Below are positions 3-7,877 of a stretch of 31,924 bases of DNA, in pieces. The stretch's first letter is position 1. Every line of letters begins with the position of its first letter. Location: positions 1 to 31,924 of IMG/VR virus record IMGVR_UViG_3300044802_000010; one strand, given 5' to 3'. Made by a program: the position numbers and the translations under genes. The notes under the pieces were generated by a model that saw only the letters and a program-made list of their open reading frames with translations, did not search any database and was not told the origin of the DNA. Origin of the DNA: a virus.

Positions 3-476
3 ACTCATGCTTTCAGAGGACACAATGACTTGGAGAGATACGAAATTCTCGGAGTTCGCTACACATCGAATCATCCAATATGGACTACACGTGGGTATAT
101 TCCAACCTCGGAATTAAAACCTCTTGGCGTTGTGAAGGTCATAGGATGTAGTGGACTCAAGGAGAAAGCCAATGGAACGAAAATGCTCATGGTGCAAGAA
201 GTTATTCGACGCGGATATTATCTCAAGAAAGTTTTGCTCAAGGAGTTGTGCTTCACGTCATCTGCACTCTCAGCCGCACATAAAGAAAAAGATGAGGGGA
301 GTCATGTTGGACGAAAAGAAAACGGGTCTTCTTTTTACTCTTGGGTGGAGACTCATGCGCAAAAAGAACTCCCAGATAATGCGGGATTTGGACAGAACGG
401 TACGGGAAGTAATATCGTTTGCAATATCGAAACCGGAACAGGAAACTACATAGCGAATGGGTTGCTGGTGCATAAT
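3..476 (+). mobile_element. Intein (C-terminal part) splitting helicase motif II
   Basis: The reading frame begins with an intein block-B-like stretch (VRYTSNHPIW, with the T..H pair). It ends with a textbook C-terminal splicing region, NIETGTGNYIANG followed by LLVHN, immediately before Ser (TCG, 477-479). Asn at 474-476 is the expected cyclising residue and Ser the +1 nucleophile. The host sequence after the junction is SHKIKS, so the insertion falls inside the DE|SH Walker B box. The N-terminal block A is outside the window. The central part in this frame does not look like a LAGLIDADG endonuclease; a different frame there encodes a zinc-finger ORF (172-453). Confidence 0.88.
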
Positions 477-1436
477 TCGCACAAGATAAAAAGTCACTCA
501 AGCGTTGTATCAAAGCACTTCGGTAAGTTAAATAGACAAAGCAAAAAGAGAGTTTGTCTCACTGGCACCCCGATGAGTCACTCGCCTCTGGATGTGTTTG
601 GTCAGTTCAGATTCTTAAATCCGGCAATTTTCGGATACTCATTTCACCAGTTCAAGATGAGGTACAGCATTCTCGGAGGATACAAGCAAAAGGAAGTCGT
701 GGCGTATAAAAACATGGATGAGTTGCATAGAAAATTCTACTCCATTAGCCAGCGTGTTCTCAAGGATGATGTGCTCGATCTGCCTGAAGAGGTGGATGAA
801 AATATCGAGGTCATCCTGTCGCCGAAGACGCTGAAGCATTACAAGGAGCTGGAGAAGAACTTCATTACGGAGATCGAGAGTGGCGTCGTGACGGCTTCTA
901 ACGCGCTGGTAAAACTTTTGAGGTTACAACAACTCACAGGAGGGCATCTTGGCTACGGTACAGAGGGGGAAGTCGAGGAGATTGGAGACGAGAAGCTCAA
1001 CGCGCTCTCGGAAGTCATCGAGGGAATCGGAGACAATCCCGTCGTGGTGTTCGCTCGTTTCACTTCAGAGATTGATGCCATCCAGAAACGGTTTGGCGAT
1101 ATGGAAATTTCATCTTGCAGAATTGACGGACATAAAAAAGAGCTTGACATATTCGTGTCGGGAGCCGCGCAAGCCGTTGTCGTACAAATCGCAAGTGGTG
1201 GTGTCGGTATTGACCTCACAAGGGCGGCTTATGCGATATACTTTTCCACTGGCTTCTCTCTCGCAGATTACTTGCAGTCTAGAGCACGAATACATAGGCC
1301 TGGGCAAACGAGGAAGGTGACATATATCCACATGCTCGCGAAGGACACGGTGGACGAGGACATAGCGGACGCGCTCGTGAAAAAGAAGAATGTTATTGAT
1401 CATGTACTTGAAGGAATGCGAAAGGGGGCGAGATAG
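3..1436 (+). CDS. SNF2-family (SF2) DNA helicase, 5'-truncated, intein-containing
   Basis: The gene is open from the window edge, so its N-terminus (Walker A and the first half of motif II) lies outside. After the intein ends at position 476 the extein resumes with SHKIKS, the second half of a DE(S)H box. Then come the SNF2 landmarks in order: LTGTPM (motif III), VVVFARF (motif IV), ASGGVGIDL (motif V) and QSRARIHRPGQ (motif VI with arginine finger). The family uses ATP to translocate on duplex DNA and is common in phage replication blocks. The stop directly abuts the next ATG, suggesting one operon. A TTG at 30 could be read as a start, but the intein motif extends upstream of it, so I treat the gene as partial. 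The helicase identity is firm; the exact substrate is unknown. Confidence 0.9.
   Translation, partial: THAFRGHNDLERYEILGVRYTSNHPIWTTRGYIPTSELKPLGVVKVIGCSGLKEKANGTKMLMVQEVIRRGYYLKKVLLKELCFTSSALSAAHKEKDEGSHVGRKENGSSFYSWVETHAQKELPDNAGFGQNGTGSNIVCNIETGTGNYIANGLLVHNSHKIKSHSSVVSKHFGKLNRQSKKRVCLTGTPMSHSPLDVFGQFRFLNPAIFGYSFHQFKMRYSILGGYKQKEVVAYKNMDELHRKFYSISQRVLKDDVLDLPEEVDENIEVILSPKTLKHYKELEKNFITEIESGVVTASNALVKLLRLQQLTGGHLGYGTEGEVEEIGDEKLNALSEVIEGIGDNPVVVFARFTSEIDAIQKRFGDMEISSCRIDGHKKELDIFVSGAAQAVVVQIASGGVGIDLTRAAYAIYFSTGFSLADYLQSRARIHRPGQTRKVTYIHMLAKDTVDEDIADALVKKKNVIDHVLEGMRKGAR
172..453 (+). CDS. Nested zinc-finger ORF inside the intein, alternate frame
   Basis: This 93-codon ORF lies entirely within the intein but in another frame. 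It starts at an ATG preceded by AAGGAG with a 7-nt spacer, a very good ribosome-binding site. The product begins MERKCSWCKKLF and contains CX2C-X13-CX3C followed by ASRH, the treble-clef-like finger commonly found at the N-terminus of phage HNH/NUMOD homing endonucleases. A basic stretch (KKKMRG) follows. The remaining ~50 residues show no HNH motif. It may be an independent overlapping gene, or the true intein insert exposed by two compensating frameshifts (natural decay or sequencing indels). The finger motif is seen; the endonuclease link is inferred. Confidence 0.5.
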   Translation: MERKCSWCKKLFDADIISRKFCSRSCASRHLHSQPHIKKKMRGVMLDEKKTGLLFTLGWRLMRKKNSQIMRDLDRTVREVISFAISKPEQETT

Positions 1437-2784: not shown

Positions 2785-3519
2785 ATGAGTGGAGAACTCA
2801 CAGTCGTCAAACCGCAAGACTATGCTATCACGATCTCTTCGGAGCAGGTAACGAAAGCCCTTCGTGAGAATTTGGGAGGGCGTCCCATCGGTAAGTTCGA
2901 TCTGGAACGCGTGAAGGTTCCCAGCCAGGGCTCTACGTTCTTCGCGGTTAACACGCTGGAGGGGGAGCAGAGCGTTAAGGAGTTGAAGGGAATCATTCTC
3001 AACTGGTCAGAGAAGCGCATGTACTGGAAAGATAAAATCGGAACAACGGGTGCTGGAGCTCCGCCGGATTGCGCGAGCGAGGATGGGGACGCTGGAGTCG
3101 GGGAGCCGGGTGGAGCGTGCGCCAAGTGCAAGTATGCTCAGTTCGGATCGGCGGTCAAGGACAACGGAGACTTCGGTAAGGGGCAAGCATGCAAGCTCGT
3201 ACGCTATCTGCTTATCGTGAAGAAGGAAGACATGATTCCTTTCGTCCTGTGCGTTCCGCCAAGTTCGCTTGGACATCTGCGCAAGATGTTCCTTCGCCTG
3301 TCCAGCAAAGGAATGCCTTACTATCAGGTTGAGGTTGCGTTCACACTGGAGAAGGCACAGAGCGGGGACGGCATTACGTACAGCACCATCATGCCGAGGG
3401 TGAGTGGCGTGCTGGACAAGGACACCATAACCGCTATCGAGAAGTACCGTGAGCAGGTTCGTGGAGCTTTCGAGAACGTCGATGTTCAAGAGGAGGATTA
3501 TCATGCAGTCAATCAATAA
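2785..3519 (+). CDS. Conserved phage protein with putative zinc site, replication block
   Basis: A 244-residue protein starting after TAAGGAGAAAATC ATG. The middle carries APPDCASEDG, then GGACAKCKYAQFGS and GKGQACKLVRYLL, that is Cys residues spaced to bind a metal. Then come VLCVPPSSLGHLRKM and a beta-rich part (YYQVEVAFTLEKAQ). This arrangement resembles, from memory, a widespread family of phage proteins encoded beside primase and helicase genes whose role is unproven; an ssDNA-binding or recombination role is often suspected. The C-terminus is acidic (VQEEDYHAVNQ), a feature shared with ssDNA-binding proteins. It overlaps the next gene by 17 nt. Confidence 0.75.
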   Translation: MSGELTVVKPQDYAITISSEQVTKALRENLGGRPIGKFDLERVKVPSQGSTFFAVNTLEGEQSVKELKGIILNWSEKRMYWKDKIGTTGAGAPPDCASEDGDAGVGEPGGACAKCKYAQFGSAVKDNGDFGKGQACKLVRYLLIVKKEDMIPFVLCVPPSSLGHLRKMFLRLSSKGMPYYQVEVAFTLEKAQSGDGITYSTIMPRVSGVLDKDTITAIEKYREQVRGAFENVDVQEEDYHAVNQ

Positions 3520-3847
3520 CGTTCAGGATTTGGGAATCTTTCAGAAATTGATTTTTGGAAATGGCAAGGGGCATACGGTCGAGGTTCACGTCAGCAAGAT
3601 GGGGGACTCGTACTTTGGTATTGCTCTTGACCAACTCGGAAGAGGACATGCGTTCCCTATCGAGGGGGTGCGCACCGTTGATGGTGCGTTCTCTGAATTC
3701 GAGACGGCGTTCGAGGCATTCAGGAAGGGCGTTATCGCTCGGGAAGAGGCGGCTGAGAAGGAGAAGGCCGCTAAGGAATATGCGGAAGCGACAAAGAAGC
3801 CAGAAGTCGTTGTCGCGACGAAGATTCCCGAGGTGAAAAAGAAATGA
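3503..3847 (+). CDS. Hypothetical protein with Lys/Glu/Ala-rich tail, 114 aa
   Basis: I chose the ATG at 3503 because AAGAGGAGGATTATC is an excellent ribosome-binding site; the frame is open further upstream only as an overlap with the preceding gene. The N-terminal ~75 residues look like a small beta-sheet domain (HTVEVHVSKMGDSYFGIAL). From about residue 75 there is a charged helix (AREEAAEKEKAAKEYAEA) and a tail of Lys, Val and Pro. Function is unknown. It overlaps the primase start by four bases (ATGA), so co-expression with the primase is likely. Confidence 0.7.
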   Translation: MQSINNVQDLGIFQKLIFGNGKGHTVEVHVSKMGDSYFGIALDQLGRGHAFPIEGVRTVDGAFSEFETAFEAFRKGVIAREEAAEKEKAAKEYAEATKKPEVVVATKIPEVKKK

Positions 3848-4533
3848 ATACCAAGGAGTTCTTCGACGCCATCTTTGAGTGGAAGGAAAAGGATGAGTAC
3901 ATACTCATCTGGAGTATCACCCAAGGCAAGAAGATCTCAAGGTACTTTAAGGATACGGAGGGGGCAGCGCAGTACGCGCTGTCCCTCCGTGATAAGTCGG
4001 AAGTGTACTTTGGGCTTTGCCCTGGAAGAGAAGAGAAAACAAAGTACGAAAGATACACAGCAAACGAAGTGTCGTCACTCCATTGCGTATGGCTGGACAT
4101 AGACCTATACAGTCCAGCGCATAGCAAGAGAAGGCTTCCGGTGGACATGAATGACGTGAGTAAAGTTTTCGAGAGAATCAGGTTTAATCCAGACATCGTA
4201 GTGGACAGTGGTCACGGGTTGCACTGCTACTGGTTACTTAAAGAGCCCGTACCCATACATAACGTGACGGACAATATCAACGTGGGTGATACCATGCACG
4301 ATTGGATGGATCACATGAAGGACGTATTCGCAGAATTTGGCTGGGAAGTAGATTCAACATGCGACTTGTCGCGTGTGCTGAGAGTACCGGGGACACTCAA
4401 CCATAAACTCAATCCTGTTAAAGAGGTAAGGGTGCAGAATGTCGATCAGCTACGAGGAATTCAAGGAGTATCTCAGCCAGGTAGTGACGCCAAGAAAGAG
4501 ATCAGCGTCATCGAAGGCGATAGTAACGTTTGA
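3844..4533 (+). CDS. AEP-type DNA primase, catalytic domain (RepB-like primase)
   Basis: The catalytic signature of archaeo-eukaryotic-type primases is present. It comprises WLDIDLY at residues 83-89 (metal-binding D85 and D87), SGHGLHCYW at 122-130 (the sGxGxHxYW motif), and LSRVLRVPGTLNHK at 175-188. The family makes RNA/DNA primers for replication. Conserved similarity ends near residue ~198; the last ~31 residues overlap the next gene in another frame and look uncharacteristic. The expected primase C-terminal domain continues in that other frame, so this is either a naturally split primase or one interrupted by a frameshift near 4430-4440. The gene starts within the ATGA overlap with its upstream neighbour. 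Confidence 0.88.
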   Translation: MNTKEFFDAIFEWKEKDEYILIWSITQGKKISRYFKDTEGAAQYALSLRDKSEVYFGLCPGREEKTKYERYTANEVSSLHCVWLDIDLYSPAHSKRRLPVDMNDVSKVFERIRFNPDIVVDSGHGLHCYWLLKEPVPIHNVTDNINVGDTMHDWMDHMKDVFAEFGWEVDSTCDLSRVLRVPGTLNHKLNPVKEVRVQNVDQLRGIQGVSQPGSDAKKEISVIEGDSNV

Positions 4534-5485
4534 CTGGAGCAAAGAACCTCCGATTCTGGAAAAGCAATTAAAAGCTATCCAAATAAATGATAGGAGATTC
4601 GGCCAGCTCTGGAGTCATTCCATACAACTTCCACGAGATAACACGCTGAGTGGGTTCGACAGTGCCCTGGCGTGCCTCCTCGTGAAAGCAAACTGGGATG
4701 ACGAGTGCATCGCTCACGTCCTATGGCAACACAGAACGCACTGGCGAAGTAACAAGATGCACGAGACGGATGATTACTATAGCCGTACAATAAATAACGC
4801 GAGAGCCCTAACTGGACATGATGAGAATACAAGTGAGCACAATGAAGAAATAGATAACATCATAACAAGTCCAGGGTCAGATGAGGAGAAGTCGGAAGCA
4901 CTTCTCAATACATTCTCTAAGATGTGGGGAGTCAAGTTATTCTCTCTCACGCGCTACTTAACGTCACCGCCATCGTTCTGCCTATCCACTGAACATGGGA
5001 AGGTAATGCTCAGTAGCATGAAGGAGTTGCACGACCAGACGGAGTTTAGGAGAGCATTGGGTGGCATGGCGAAGGTGATGATTAAGCAGGTTCCGAAAGA
5101 TGTATGGGAAGAACGGGTAGTGCAGATACTCCTGAAGGCAAGCGTGGACGCGCCTATCGTCGATGATGCCACGGTGCAGGGGCAGGTGAAGATGGGGATA
5201 AGGGATTACTTGAGAGAAGTTCCTGCGACAGAAAGCAAGAGCGAGGCGGGAACCGATGGAACTCCATACAAGAAGAATGGCAAGGTCTGGTTCTCCTCAA
5301 AGAAATTCTATCAGTGGTATCAATCGAAAGGTGGAGACAAGATAAGCGAAGCGAAGTTGATAAGCTGTCTGCAGATTGCTGAGTTCGAACACAAGCCACT
5401 CTGGCTCGCGGGACATTCTGAAAAGAGATGGGCGCTTCCGGAAGGATTTAAGATTGAGGAGGAGGTGTCAGATGAAGGAGATTAG
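4439..5485 (+). CDS. Primase C-terminal (PriCT-like) protein, split from the AEP domain
   Basis: A 348-residue protein overlapping the AEP gene by 95 nt. It begins MSISYEEFKEYLS, the kind of linker that in fused phage primases directly follows the PGT.NHK motif. It continues with SGFDSALACLLVKANW, ECIAHVLWQHRTHW and DYYSRTINNARAL, a helical pattern like the PriCT domain fused to AEP primases. The C-terminal half (KVWFSSKKFYQWYQSKGG) may be a winged helix. An AAGG seven to eight bases before the ATG could allow independent initiation. It overlaps the helicase start by 14 nt. Relation to the primase is well supported; whether one or two polypeptides are made is open. Confidence 0.75.
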   Translation: MSISYEEFKEYLSQVVTPRKRSASSKAIVTFDWSKEPPILEKQLKAIQINDRRFGQLWSHSIQLPRDNTLSGFDSALACLLVKANWDDECIAHVLWQHRTHWRSNKMHETDDYYSRTINNARALTGHDENTSEHNEEIDNIITSPGSDEEKSEALLNTFSKMWGVKLFSLTRYLTSPPSFCLSTEHGKVMLSSMKELHDQTEFRRALGGMAKVMIKQVPKDVWEERVVQILLKASVDAPIVDDATVQGQVKMGIRDYLREVPATESKSEAGTDGTPYKKNGKVWFSSKKFYQWYQSKGGDKISEAKLISCLQIAEFEHKPLWLAGHSEKRWALPEGFKIEEEVSDEGD

Positions 5486-7877
5486 AGTATTCGGACCACC
5501 GGGGTGCGGAAAGACAACTACGCTAACGAAGTATGTCAAGCAAGGTGCCGAGAAGTACGGTGCGGACAAACTCATGGTAGCCTCCTTCACTCGCACCGCC
5601 GCGCAAGAGATAGCGGGGCGTGATCTGGGAATACCTGAGAGCAAGGTGGCCACGCTTCACGCTCATTGCTTCAGGGCCATAGGGACTCCGAAGATAGCTG
5701 AGGATTCTAAGAACCTGAAGTTGTGGAATGAGAAACACCCCGGCAAGAGGATAACAGGGGGAGGCGTGAATCTGGACGACCCAGACATGCCATCTCTTGA
5801 TGAGGATGGTGACAGGCTACTCTGCATTGCCAATACGCTGAGGGCAAGGCGCGTGCCCACATCACAGTGGCCAGCGCCAGTGGCCGCCTTCATGGCACAG
5901 TGGTGCGAGTTCAAGAGTGAGAATCACTTCATGGACTTCACCGACCTCATCGAGTATGCGCTGGACAATATCGAGTTCGCTCCAGATATGCCGACTGTGG
6001 GAATATTCGATGAGTATCAAGATTTCACGCCTTTGGAAATTGCCCTGGTAAGGAAGTGGTCTGAGCATATGGAGTATGCCGTTGTTGCTGGAGATGAAGA
6101 TCAACTTCTTTACGGTTTTAAGGGTTGTGATCCAAGGGCATTCCTTGAGCCAGATGTCCCTGCAGAGCAGAAACAGATTCTTCGCCAATCATATAGAGTG
6201 CCACGTGCTGTTCATAGTTATGCGTCCAAAATAACTGGACGCATAAGTTATCGCGAACCCAAAGAATATCGTCCACGTGACGAGGAAGGAGAAGTAAAGT
6301 GCCTCTCGACATCGTATACCAATCCAGACATGGCCGTCCAACTGGCGCAGAAGTTGACCGCGGACGGGGAGACCTGCATGTTCCTGGCATCGTGCGGGTA
6401 CATGCTTCATTCGGTGATGAAGACGTTGAAAGAATCTGGAGTGCCATCCGGAAACAGATACAGGCAGAACAAGAAGCAGTGGAACCCGCTGGATGCAAAA
6501 GCTCGTGACATCATCTTGTCGTTCGCACGCAAGGACAGACTATGGACGTGGAAGGAGCTGACTGATATACTGCCCATCATCTCAGCCGATTACTTGGTAC
6601 AGGGGGCAAAGACACGTATTGATATGGAGACCGTGGAAAATGAAAACGAAGAGCTCAAAGTGTCGGAGTTGCTTGAATACTTCCTCCCACAGACGCTCGA
6701 CGAAATTCTTGGAGAAGCAACAGCTAAGTGGCTACTTGACCACGCTATCGCTTCCCGAAGAGAGTCTCTACGATACGCGGTTGAGGCTTTTACGAATGGA
6801 GGTAGCGATGCGTTGCTTAAAGCGCCACGCTGCACGGTTGGCACAATACATTGCTCTCCGGGAGACGAACTCGTCCTTACGAAAAATAGAGGAGAAGTCA
6901 AGATTGAAGAACTCGATCCAGAAGAAGACAGATTGGTGAGTTATGACAGGAAGTGCAATAGGATTGTTGGAGGGCATGACAGATATAATTCCGATGGTTA
7001 CAAATTCATACGAGAGAAAAATCGCTACTCCGGTGACATGATAACAATAAGGACTGACTCGACTTCCACGAGAGTTACACCGACGCATTTTCTTGAGGTT
7101 AAATTTTCAGAAAACTTCTTTGAAAAATATATTGTATATCTTATGAGAAGGAAGGACTGGTGGAGGGTAGGAATTTGTGTGTCTGGACATAGGCCATATA
7201 AGAGCGGAGGCATTACTGGAAGAATGGCCTCAGAGAAAGCAGATGACGGATGGATATTGAAAGTTTGCGAAACGAGAGAAGAGGCGATTGAACAGGAAGC
7301 CATTATTCAGGGAAGATATGGAATCACTGGGCTCACTTTCGAGGCATCTAAAAATAGGTCGCTTTCAACGGATTCTTTACATAGGGTTCATGATACGATA
7401 CGTGTGGAATCCAATAAGCGAATTATAAAGCTCATGTATGATTTTGGAATAATGATAGACCAACCACTATGCTCTAGGCATACCAAGAGGTCAAACAAGA
7501 GAGGGATGTTCTTGACGTGGGCATCAAATTTTATAAGTGGATATATGGAAATCCCGACATTCGATAAGTCAGGAAGACCGATAATGAAAATCGCGAAGTC
7601 AGAAAGAAAGAATTTCATGGGATTCGTATACAGTCTTGATGTCGAAAGGCATCATCATTATGTGAGCGGAGGAGCCGTTGTTCATAATTCAGTTAAAGGA
7701 GGGGAGGCAGACAACGTCTTCCTCTTCCCAGACATCTCGCAAAAAGCGTCGGCGCAGTGGGTAGGGAAGCGTGAGGAGAAGGACACACTATACCGACAGT
7801 TCTATGTGGGTGCCACTCGTGCGAGGAAACGCCTATTCTTGTGTATGCCAGCAACCAAGATGTTTTTTGAGGTGTGA
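5472..7877 (+). CDS. UvrD/PcrA-like SF1 DNA helicase with intein
   Basis: 801 residues including a 279-residue intein; the spliced protein would be 522. The start ATG follows GGAGGAGGTG. Motif I is GPPGCGKTT (residues 8-16), Ia is VASFTRTAAQEI, II is DEYQD (180-184), III is GDEDQLLYGFKG (from 207) and IV is LRQSYRVP. Motif V is TIH|SVKGGEAD, broken by the intein, and VI is FYVGATRARKRLFL. This is the UvrD/Rep/PcrA layout: a 3'-5' ssDNA translocase and helicase acting in phage replication or recombination. It lies between the primase and a nuclease gene. Without splicing, motifs V and VI are separated from the rest, so activity should depend on intein excision. Confidence 0.92.
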   Translation: MKEIRVFGPPGCGKTTTLTKYVKQGAEKYGADKLMVASFTRTAAQEIAGRDLGIPESKVATLHAHCFRAIGTPKIAEDSKNLKLWNEKHPGKRITGGGVNLDDPDMPSLDEDGDRLLCIANTLRARRVPTSQWPAPVAAFMAQWCEFKSENHFMDFTDLIEYALDNIEFAPDMPTVGIFDEYQDFTPLEIALVRKWSEHMEYAVVAGDEDQLLYGFKGCDPRAFLEPDVPAEQKQILRQSYRVPRAVHSYASKITGRISYREPKEYRPRDEEGEVKCLSTSYTNPDMAVQLAQKLTADGETCMFLASCGYMLHSVMKTLKESGVPSGNRYRQNKKQWNPLDAKARDIILSFARKDRLWTWKELTDILPIISADYLVQGAKTRIDMETVENENEELKVSELLEYFLPQTLDEILGEATAKWLLDHAIASRRESLRYAVEAFTNGGSDALLKAPRCTVGTIHCSPGDELVLTKNRGEVKIEELDPEEDRLVSYDRKCNRIVGGHDRYNSDGYKFIREKNRYSGDMITIRTDSTSTRVTPTHFLEVKFSENFFEKYIVYLMRRKDWWRVGICVSGHRPYKSGGITGRMASEKADDGWILKVCETREEAIEQEAIIQGRYGITGLTFEASKNRSLSTDSLHRVHDTIRVESNKRIIKLMYDFGIMIDQPLCSRHTKRSNKRGMFLTWASNFISGYMEIPTFDKSGRPIMKIAKSERKNFMGFVYSLDVERHHHYVSGGAVVHNSVKGGEADNVFLFPDISQKASAQWVGKREEKDTLYRQFYVGATRARKRLFLCMPATKMFFEV
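6852..7688 (+). mobile_element. Intein splitting SF1 helicase motif V
   Basis: A complete 279-residue intein in frame within the helicase. It starts at Cys1 (CSPGDELVLTK, block A) directly after TIH. It has block B around residues 61-83 (RVTPTHF, T..H) and ends with block F/G (FVYSLDVE, then GGAVVHN) before Ser (+1). Removing it rejoins TIH and SVKGGEAD to give a normal SF1 motif V. The middle has no LAGLIDADG or HNH motif. Instead residues ~93-165 (YIVYLMRR, RVG, WILKV, REEAIEQEAII) have an order reminiscent of GIY-YIG-type folds, which I offer only as a resemblance. A 279-aa size leaves room for such an insert. Confidence 0.93.

Follow-up and report, generated by a model that had tools for sequence, protein, structure and literature searches.

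A putative homing-nuclease remnant nested in the +1 frame of a phage helicase intein, and its full-length relatives

Described systems closest to the nested arrangement

To our knowledge, intein nucleases have been described as domains in the intein's own frame. Nuclease ORFs are common in introns, and the homing endonuclease I-Bth0305I is intron-associated. Fractured genes, which were reportedly described by Dassa and colleagues in 2009, are said to be inteins split in two, their halves separated by a gene for a Vsr-like nuclease. The loci we describe here share with canonical large inteins, which carry an in-frame LAGLIDADG or HNH nuclease, the Hint halves around the nuclease, mobility and the existence of nuclease-free mini-inteins. 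They differ from them in that the nested nuclease is read in another frame than the intein and is predicted to be made as a protein of its own. With I-Bth0305I (PDB 3R3P; Vsr-like homing endonuclease family) the nested nucleases have the fold of the catalytic domain in common (Z 12.4), but they have one or more zinc fingers before the domain and their gene sits inside an intein.

The closest published relatives are the ShiLan out-of-frame HNH insertion, which is not an intein, and the 'fractured' split inteins. The ShiLan domain and the Pacc40 insertion are cases of an out-of-frame HNH in phage DNA methylase genes (PMC11855218). As in our loci, a homing-type nuclease is written out of frame within inserted DNA through which the frame of the host gene stays open, and the distribution among phages is patchy. 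However, the ShiLan insertion encodes an HNH nuclease, lacks a splicing domain and is retained rather than removed, and its authors see no ribosome-binding site (PMC11855218), whereas the nested loci have a predicted Hint intein in the host frame and a Vsr-like nuclease, always at +1 and often with a Shine-Dalgarno (SD)-like site. Here, Hint halves are present and the nuclease is Vsr-like. The fractured-gene work (Dassa et al., 2009; doi 10.1093/nar/gkp095) is cited in PMC10448857. Fractured genes have the same nuclease type beside intein halves, and one of our loci, L115, resembles that layout; the nested loci, in contrast, encode one uninterrupted intein polypeptide, which the nuclease gene overlaps rather than separating the halves. 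Stops between the intein halves are found in L115 and not in the window.

Our literature searches for an intein with an out-of-frame nuclease returned only the ShiLan work and one genome announcement, which reports one out-of-frame HNH in a methylase; they yielded no description of a contiguous intein that a nuclease gene overlaps in a different frame. The title of a preprint by Gosselin, Arsenault and Gogarten (2025; doi 10.1101/2025.01.02.630785), 'Actinobacteriophage Inteins: ... Non-Canonical Architecture', points to unusual actinophage intein layouts that may include a similar arrangement.

The window and its nested ORF

The window, that is, the whole stretch of DNA analysed, is an entire IMG/VR record (IMGVR_UViG_3300044802_000010; 31.9 kb) and a linear fragment. 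The contig starts within the intein, so the 5' part of the intein, including Cys1 and block A, is off the contig; complete relatives have Cys1. A long open frame covers 3-1436; it contains intein splicing motifs as far as 476 and then encodes a SNF2-type phage helicase. The features are:

3..476, + strand: intein reading frame, 5' part cut off (open frame; TIGR01443; alignment with the complete inteins L250, L257 and L007)
about 3-149, + strand: block-B region of the intein frame, with block-B-like TSNHPIWTTRGYIP
about 150-405, + strand: intein-frame read-through of the nuclease gene (open frame)
159..164, + strand: AAGGAG, SD-like, 7 bases before the ATG (anti-SD duplex -8.5 kcal/mol)
172..453, + strand: nested ORF, 93 aa, putative internally deleted Vsr-like/DUF559 homing endonuclease (HE30 profile; PF04480; alignments)
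184..249, + strand: zinc finger CX2C-X13-CX3C, matching profile positions 4-43
307..441, + strand: C-terminal segment of the nuclease domain (D..K...L...GW...R..N), profile positions 158-201
about 408-476, + strand: C-terminal splicing block with VHN at its end, NIETGTGNYIANGLLVHN then S
477..1436, + strand: C-extein, the remainder of the SNF2-type phage helicase (PF00176, phrog_62), with SHKIK directly after the intein

There are no stops in the intein frame between 3 and 476. The C-terminal block scores 16.5 bits against TIGR01443 (intein_Cterm; cut-off 15.6), and frame 3 contains both a block B TxxH motif (TSNHP) and an intein C-terminal end (ANGLLVHN/S, the slash marking the junction). Downstream, the helicase matches PF00176 (E 2.7e-15) and phrog_62 (E 9.5e-87), and intein-free SNF2 homologues read DE/SHRIK at the insertion point. 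Searching GenBank phages with the helicase by blastn gave no match, and helicase scans found no close relatives of the intein, only homologues that are 39-51% identical. A second intein in the window, of 279 aa (6852-7688), interrupts a helicase of UvrD/PcrA type (5376-7877). This intein has an in-frame insert, with 16 and 25 stops in the two remaining frames; the middle of the insert has no Pfam match and looks GIY-YIG-like by eye.

The initial annotation of this DNA had placed, within 145-453, a zinc-finger ORF with a CX2C-X13-CX3C motif and AAGGAG seven bases before its ATG, and this account is accurate to the base. The ORF runs from the ATG at 172 to a TGA ending at 453 in the +1 frame of the intein; its translation begins MERKCSWCKKLFDADIISRKFCSRSC, and the finger cysteines are C5-x2-C8-x13-C22-x3-C26. 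Against HE30, a profile built from 30 nested-nuclease sequences, it scores E 8.2e-9; no other ORF of the window does better than E 0.08. The alignment covers positions 4-43 and 158-201 only: the 114 profile positions between the finger and the C-terminal segment are missing, and 7/7 family-invariant residues after the gap are present. PF04480 (DUF559) matches the second half of the ORF at E 0.0014, below the curated cut-off, and the relatives at 1e-10 to 1e-14. The catalytic residues, D..(n)..ExDG..H, are invariant in the 30 aligned relatives and deleted from the window copy. Judging from these alignments, the window ORF appears to be a remnant, not an active member, of the Vsr-like/DUF559 family; because about 114 residues including the catalytic core are lost, it probably no longer cuts DNA.

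Among the families that the annotation had proposed for a search with the ORF product, the zinc finger held up. HNH and NUMOD did not, since there is no such Pfam match in the window ORF or in seven relatives, and the family found instead is DUF559 (PD-(D/E)XK), which is Vsr-like. A weak PHROG match labelled HNH spans residues 2-60 of the window ORF, mainly the zinc-finger part.

Is the 93-aa product still in use, for example as a small DNA-binding repressor of its own locus? The SD site, the start codon, an intact zinc finger and an open frame are all retained, and another locus, L121, is likewise a shortened yet open copy (3420-3692, 91 aa, in a large helicase-type protein). L121, however, kept a different part, the catalytic core, and lost the middle of the protein, a decay opposite to that of the window copy that fits independent decay better than shared function. 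With the amino acids of the window ORF as given, a mean of 4.1 stops would be expected in the intein frame (P(0)=0.003). In the other direction the test is weak: given the intein frame, the zinc-finger frame is open with P=0.12. Openness alone is thus no evidence for the window ORF, and we rejected it as proof of coding; the evidence for coding in the window copy is homology. Overall, a working zinc-finger protein seems unlikely to us. That the ORF is translated separately, we infer from the relatives and from its own ribosome-binding site.

A family of nested loci

A search with the helicase led to L007, which has an intein at the same point as that of the window, an open intein frame and, in the +1 frame, a complete 207-aa protein with a zinc finger and DUF559. 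Searching with the finger led to L002, with the same layout in a DnaX-type ATPase; L003-L006 have only the finger in common and are not inteins. L007, L250 and L257 are complete and occupy a site of the same kind in SNF2 helicases; the full versions nearest to the window's copy are L250, which also has Ser+1, and L257. Using tblastn, the L007 and L002 nucleases matched 42 and 41 GenBank phage records. In 8/8 annotated GenBank loci that we inspected, a single helicase CDS is annotated across the match, which is in the +1 frame of that CDS; none of the eight has a nuclease annotation. Corynebacterium, Vibrio and Pseudomonas phages are among those with the nested layout under a single helicase CDS. 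In a ninth, unannotated record (L017), a profile scan found no intein.

A profile scan of viral and genome contigs added 160 further loci, namely the best 80 of 347 viral and the best 80 of 143 genome matches. In total, we count at least 108 nested loci, at least 87 of them distinct, from phage and bacterial sequences and all at +1. Among the matches listed, all loci with both intein halves are +1 without a stop, except L115. The intact nested nucleases are about 185-260 aa long and lie in a contiguous intein, and the hosts are ResIII/Helicase_C, SNF2, DEAD and DnaX-type proteins. An endonuclease-type gene overlapping an intein in another frame, one of two readings offered in the initial annotation, is therefore true for the family, with +1 in every classified relative. 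The loci are not independent samples, and our P values rest on distinct loci only. Separately, a close relative of the nested nucleases (L101, 3468-4106) is free-standing just upstream of a P-loop ATPase, without an intein.

The model of the L021 nuclease has a pLDDT of 91, and its domain matches NGO0050 (Z 14.0), I-Bth0305I (Z 12.4) and Vsr (Z 10.0). In the intein-frame model of a relative, both Hint halves are at about 95-98 pLDDT, with about 150 disordered residues (pLDDT 40-50) between them, and the best PDB match is the Mtu RecA intein.

Taking the last ATG before the finger as the nuclease start, SD-like sites occur at 46/80 nuclease starts vs 338/1938 (17%) control ATGs (Fisher p 6e-15), although a fair number of the relatives, if a minority, have only weak ones. 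The 'DEV' codons of the intein itself supply the GAGG in several loci, from Vibrio and others; near the nuclease starts of L011, L012, L013 and L014, these codons (GAY GAG GTN) double as a GAGG ribosome-binding site. The nuclease could instead be reached by ribosomal frameshifting from the intein, yielding an IntN-nuclease fusion. The +1 offset is compatible with this, and in some loci the nuclease frame runs further upstream, but 53/87 loci have a stop within five codons upstream of the first start codon of the nuclease frame. These stops led us to reject a frameshift fusion as the main route and, together with the enrichment of SD-like sites, make it distinctly improbable.

Over 70 distinct loci, the intein frame contains 0 stops, while 507 were expected when synonymous nuclease codons were shuffled. 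The same shuffling test on our controls, 57 ordinary DUF559 genes outside inteins (L122-L178), gave 419 stops observed vs 427 expected. The absence of stops in the relatives, unlike the controls, means that selection holds the intein frame open. Between close relatives, the nuclease frame has a pN/pS of 0.04-0.25 and the intein frame one of 0.8-2.1; substitutions sit at nuclease codon position 3 (e.g. 3/0/32). This bias suggests that the nuclease frame is translated and selected, and that the read-through amino acids are nearly free. On these substitution patterns, the nuclease frame in the relatives is under purifying selection and the intein frame is not.

The other reading in the initial annotation was that two compensating frameshifts conceal a normal endonuclease insert; single-base errors or mutations would then mask an endonuclease domain that is really in frame with the intein. 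Compensating changes would account for a single window with two frame changes, and the model of a relative shows disorder in this part of the intein frame. Yet the +1 relation with an uninterrupted intein frame recurs in at least 108 loci, which amount to about 90 distinct sequences and come from GenBank genomes as well as separate assemblies; this excludes compensating frameshifts or sequencing errors as the general cause in the family. In none of the classified loci is the nuclease in the intein frame, and intein-frame stops are absent far beyond chance. Homologues with the finger in frame with the intein, which the annotation had named as evidence against overlap, were not found either: every classified relative with an intein and a finger is +1. 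For the window itself, we consider compensating changes very improbable. An RNA-splicing intron with an accidentally open frame is extremely improbable: introns do often carry nuclease ORFs, but the Hint fold is predicted with high confidence, Intein_splicing is found in 34/45 host ORFs, the long frame has zero stops, and a check for group I or II intron RNA gave no Rfam match at the gathering score in the window and seven relatives (eight loci).

Insertion sites, empty sites and decayed forms

Among the matches listed, insertion in the nested loci is nearly always within Walker B ('DE/C...HN/CH', slashes marking the insertion boundaries). Near-identical Vibrio phages provide exact empty sites: 234P10 and 1.024.O lack precisely the 1068 bases of K391 and 1.194.O, the 60 bases that flank the site differing at 1-5 positions, and 142E35-1 lacks exactly the 900 bases carried by 159E43-1b. 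Between L011 and L015 the intein is about 96% identical and the exteins about 77%; like the empty sites, this speaks for mobility. At this same site, K389, K459 and PS65A.1 have a mini-intein of 150 aa, which brings the forms seen to three: empty, mini and nested. In Vibrio phage PS65A.1 (L179, 201-3332), one helicase carries two inteins, an in-frame one at Walker A, LAGLIDADG-like by eye, and the 150-aa mini-intein at the Walker B site.

L115, from a Lacinutrix MAG (about 3017-4000), is different. Its intein frame contains 23 stops and is already closed 15 bases inside the nuclease gene; IntC follows the nuclease gene in the same frame, this C-terminal half having possible starts of its own. 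The locus looks like the fractured-gene layout, which suggests that nested forms can turn into split inteins.

Proposed history and its meaning

We consider it very probable that the window holds a decayed representative of one class of mobile inteins, in which the homing endonuclease has its own gene in the +1 frame inside the intein and is not an in-frame domain. In such a locus, the long frame would be translated into a single precursor, made up in order of N-extein, Hint half, disordered read-through, second Hint half and C-extein, from which the intein would splice out. Ribosomes would also start internally, at the nuclease's own SD site, to make a zinc-finger and Vsr-like nuclease. When another phage infects the same cell, this nuclease could cut the intein-free Walker B site of that phage, and repair of the break would then introduce a copy of the intein. 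Changes would survive only if they kept the intein frame stop-free, since the host ATPase depends on splicing. The window copy would have lost its catalytic core through a deletion of about 114 codons, with a length divisible by three, so that both frames stayed open; what is left would be a short intein that is probably no longer capable of homing. On the sequence at hand, such an in-phase deletion is the simplest history of the window copy, though misassembly may also be its source.

It is tempting to speculate that this phage-intein lineage, coding at once for a splicing protein and a +1 homing nuclease, is the stage from which split inteins arise, and we put this forward tentatively, as a possibility somewhat short of probable. 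Once the halves were made separately, stops could accumulate in the intein frame to give a 'fractured' gene, as L115 suggests. A comparison of the nested, decayed, empty and split forms found at a single site would put this origin to the test.

Because the nuclease is unannotated in the GenBank helicase regions that we inspected, intein surveys would read nested loci as 'mini-inteins with long linkers'. The nested arrangement would uncouple the dose of the nuclease from that of the host protein, and the loci offer natural dual-coding alignments for measuring selection on overlapping genes. In these inteins, hundreds of bases appear to encode two unrelated products, with one frame policed by the host gene's need for splicing and the other by a selfish nuclease.
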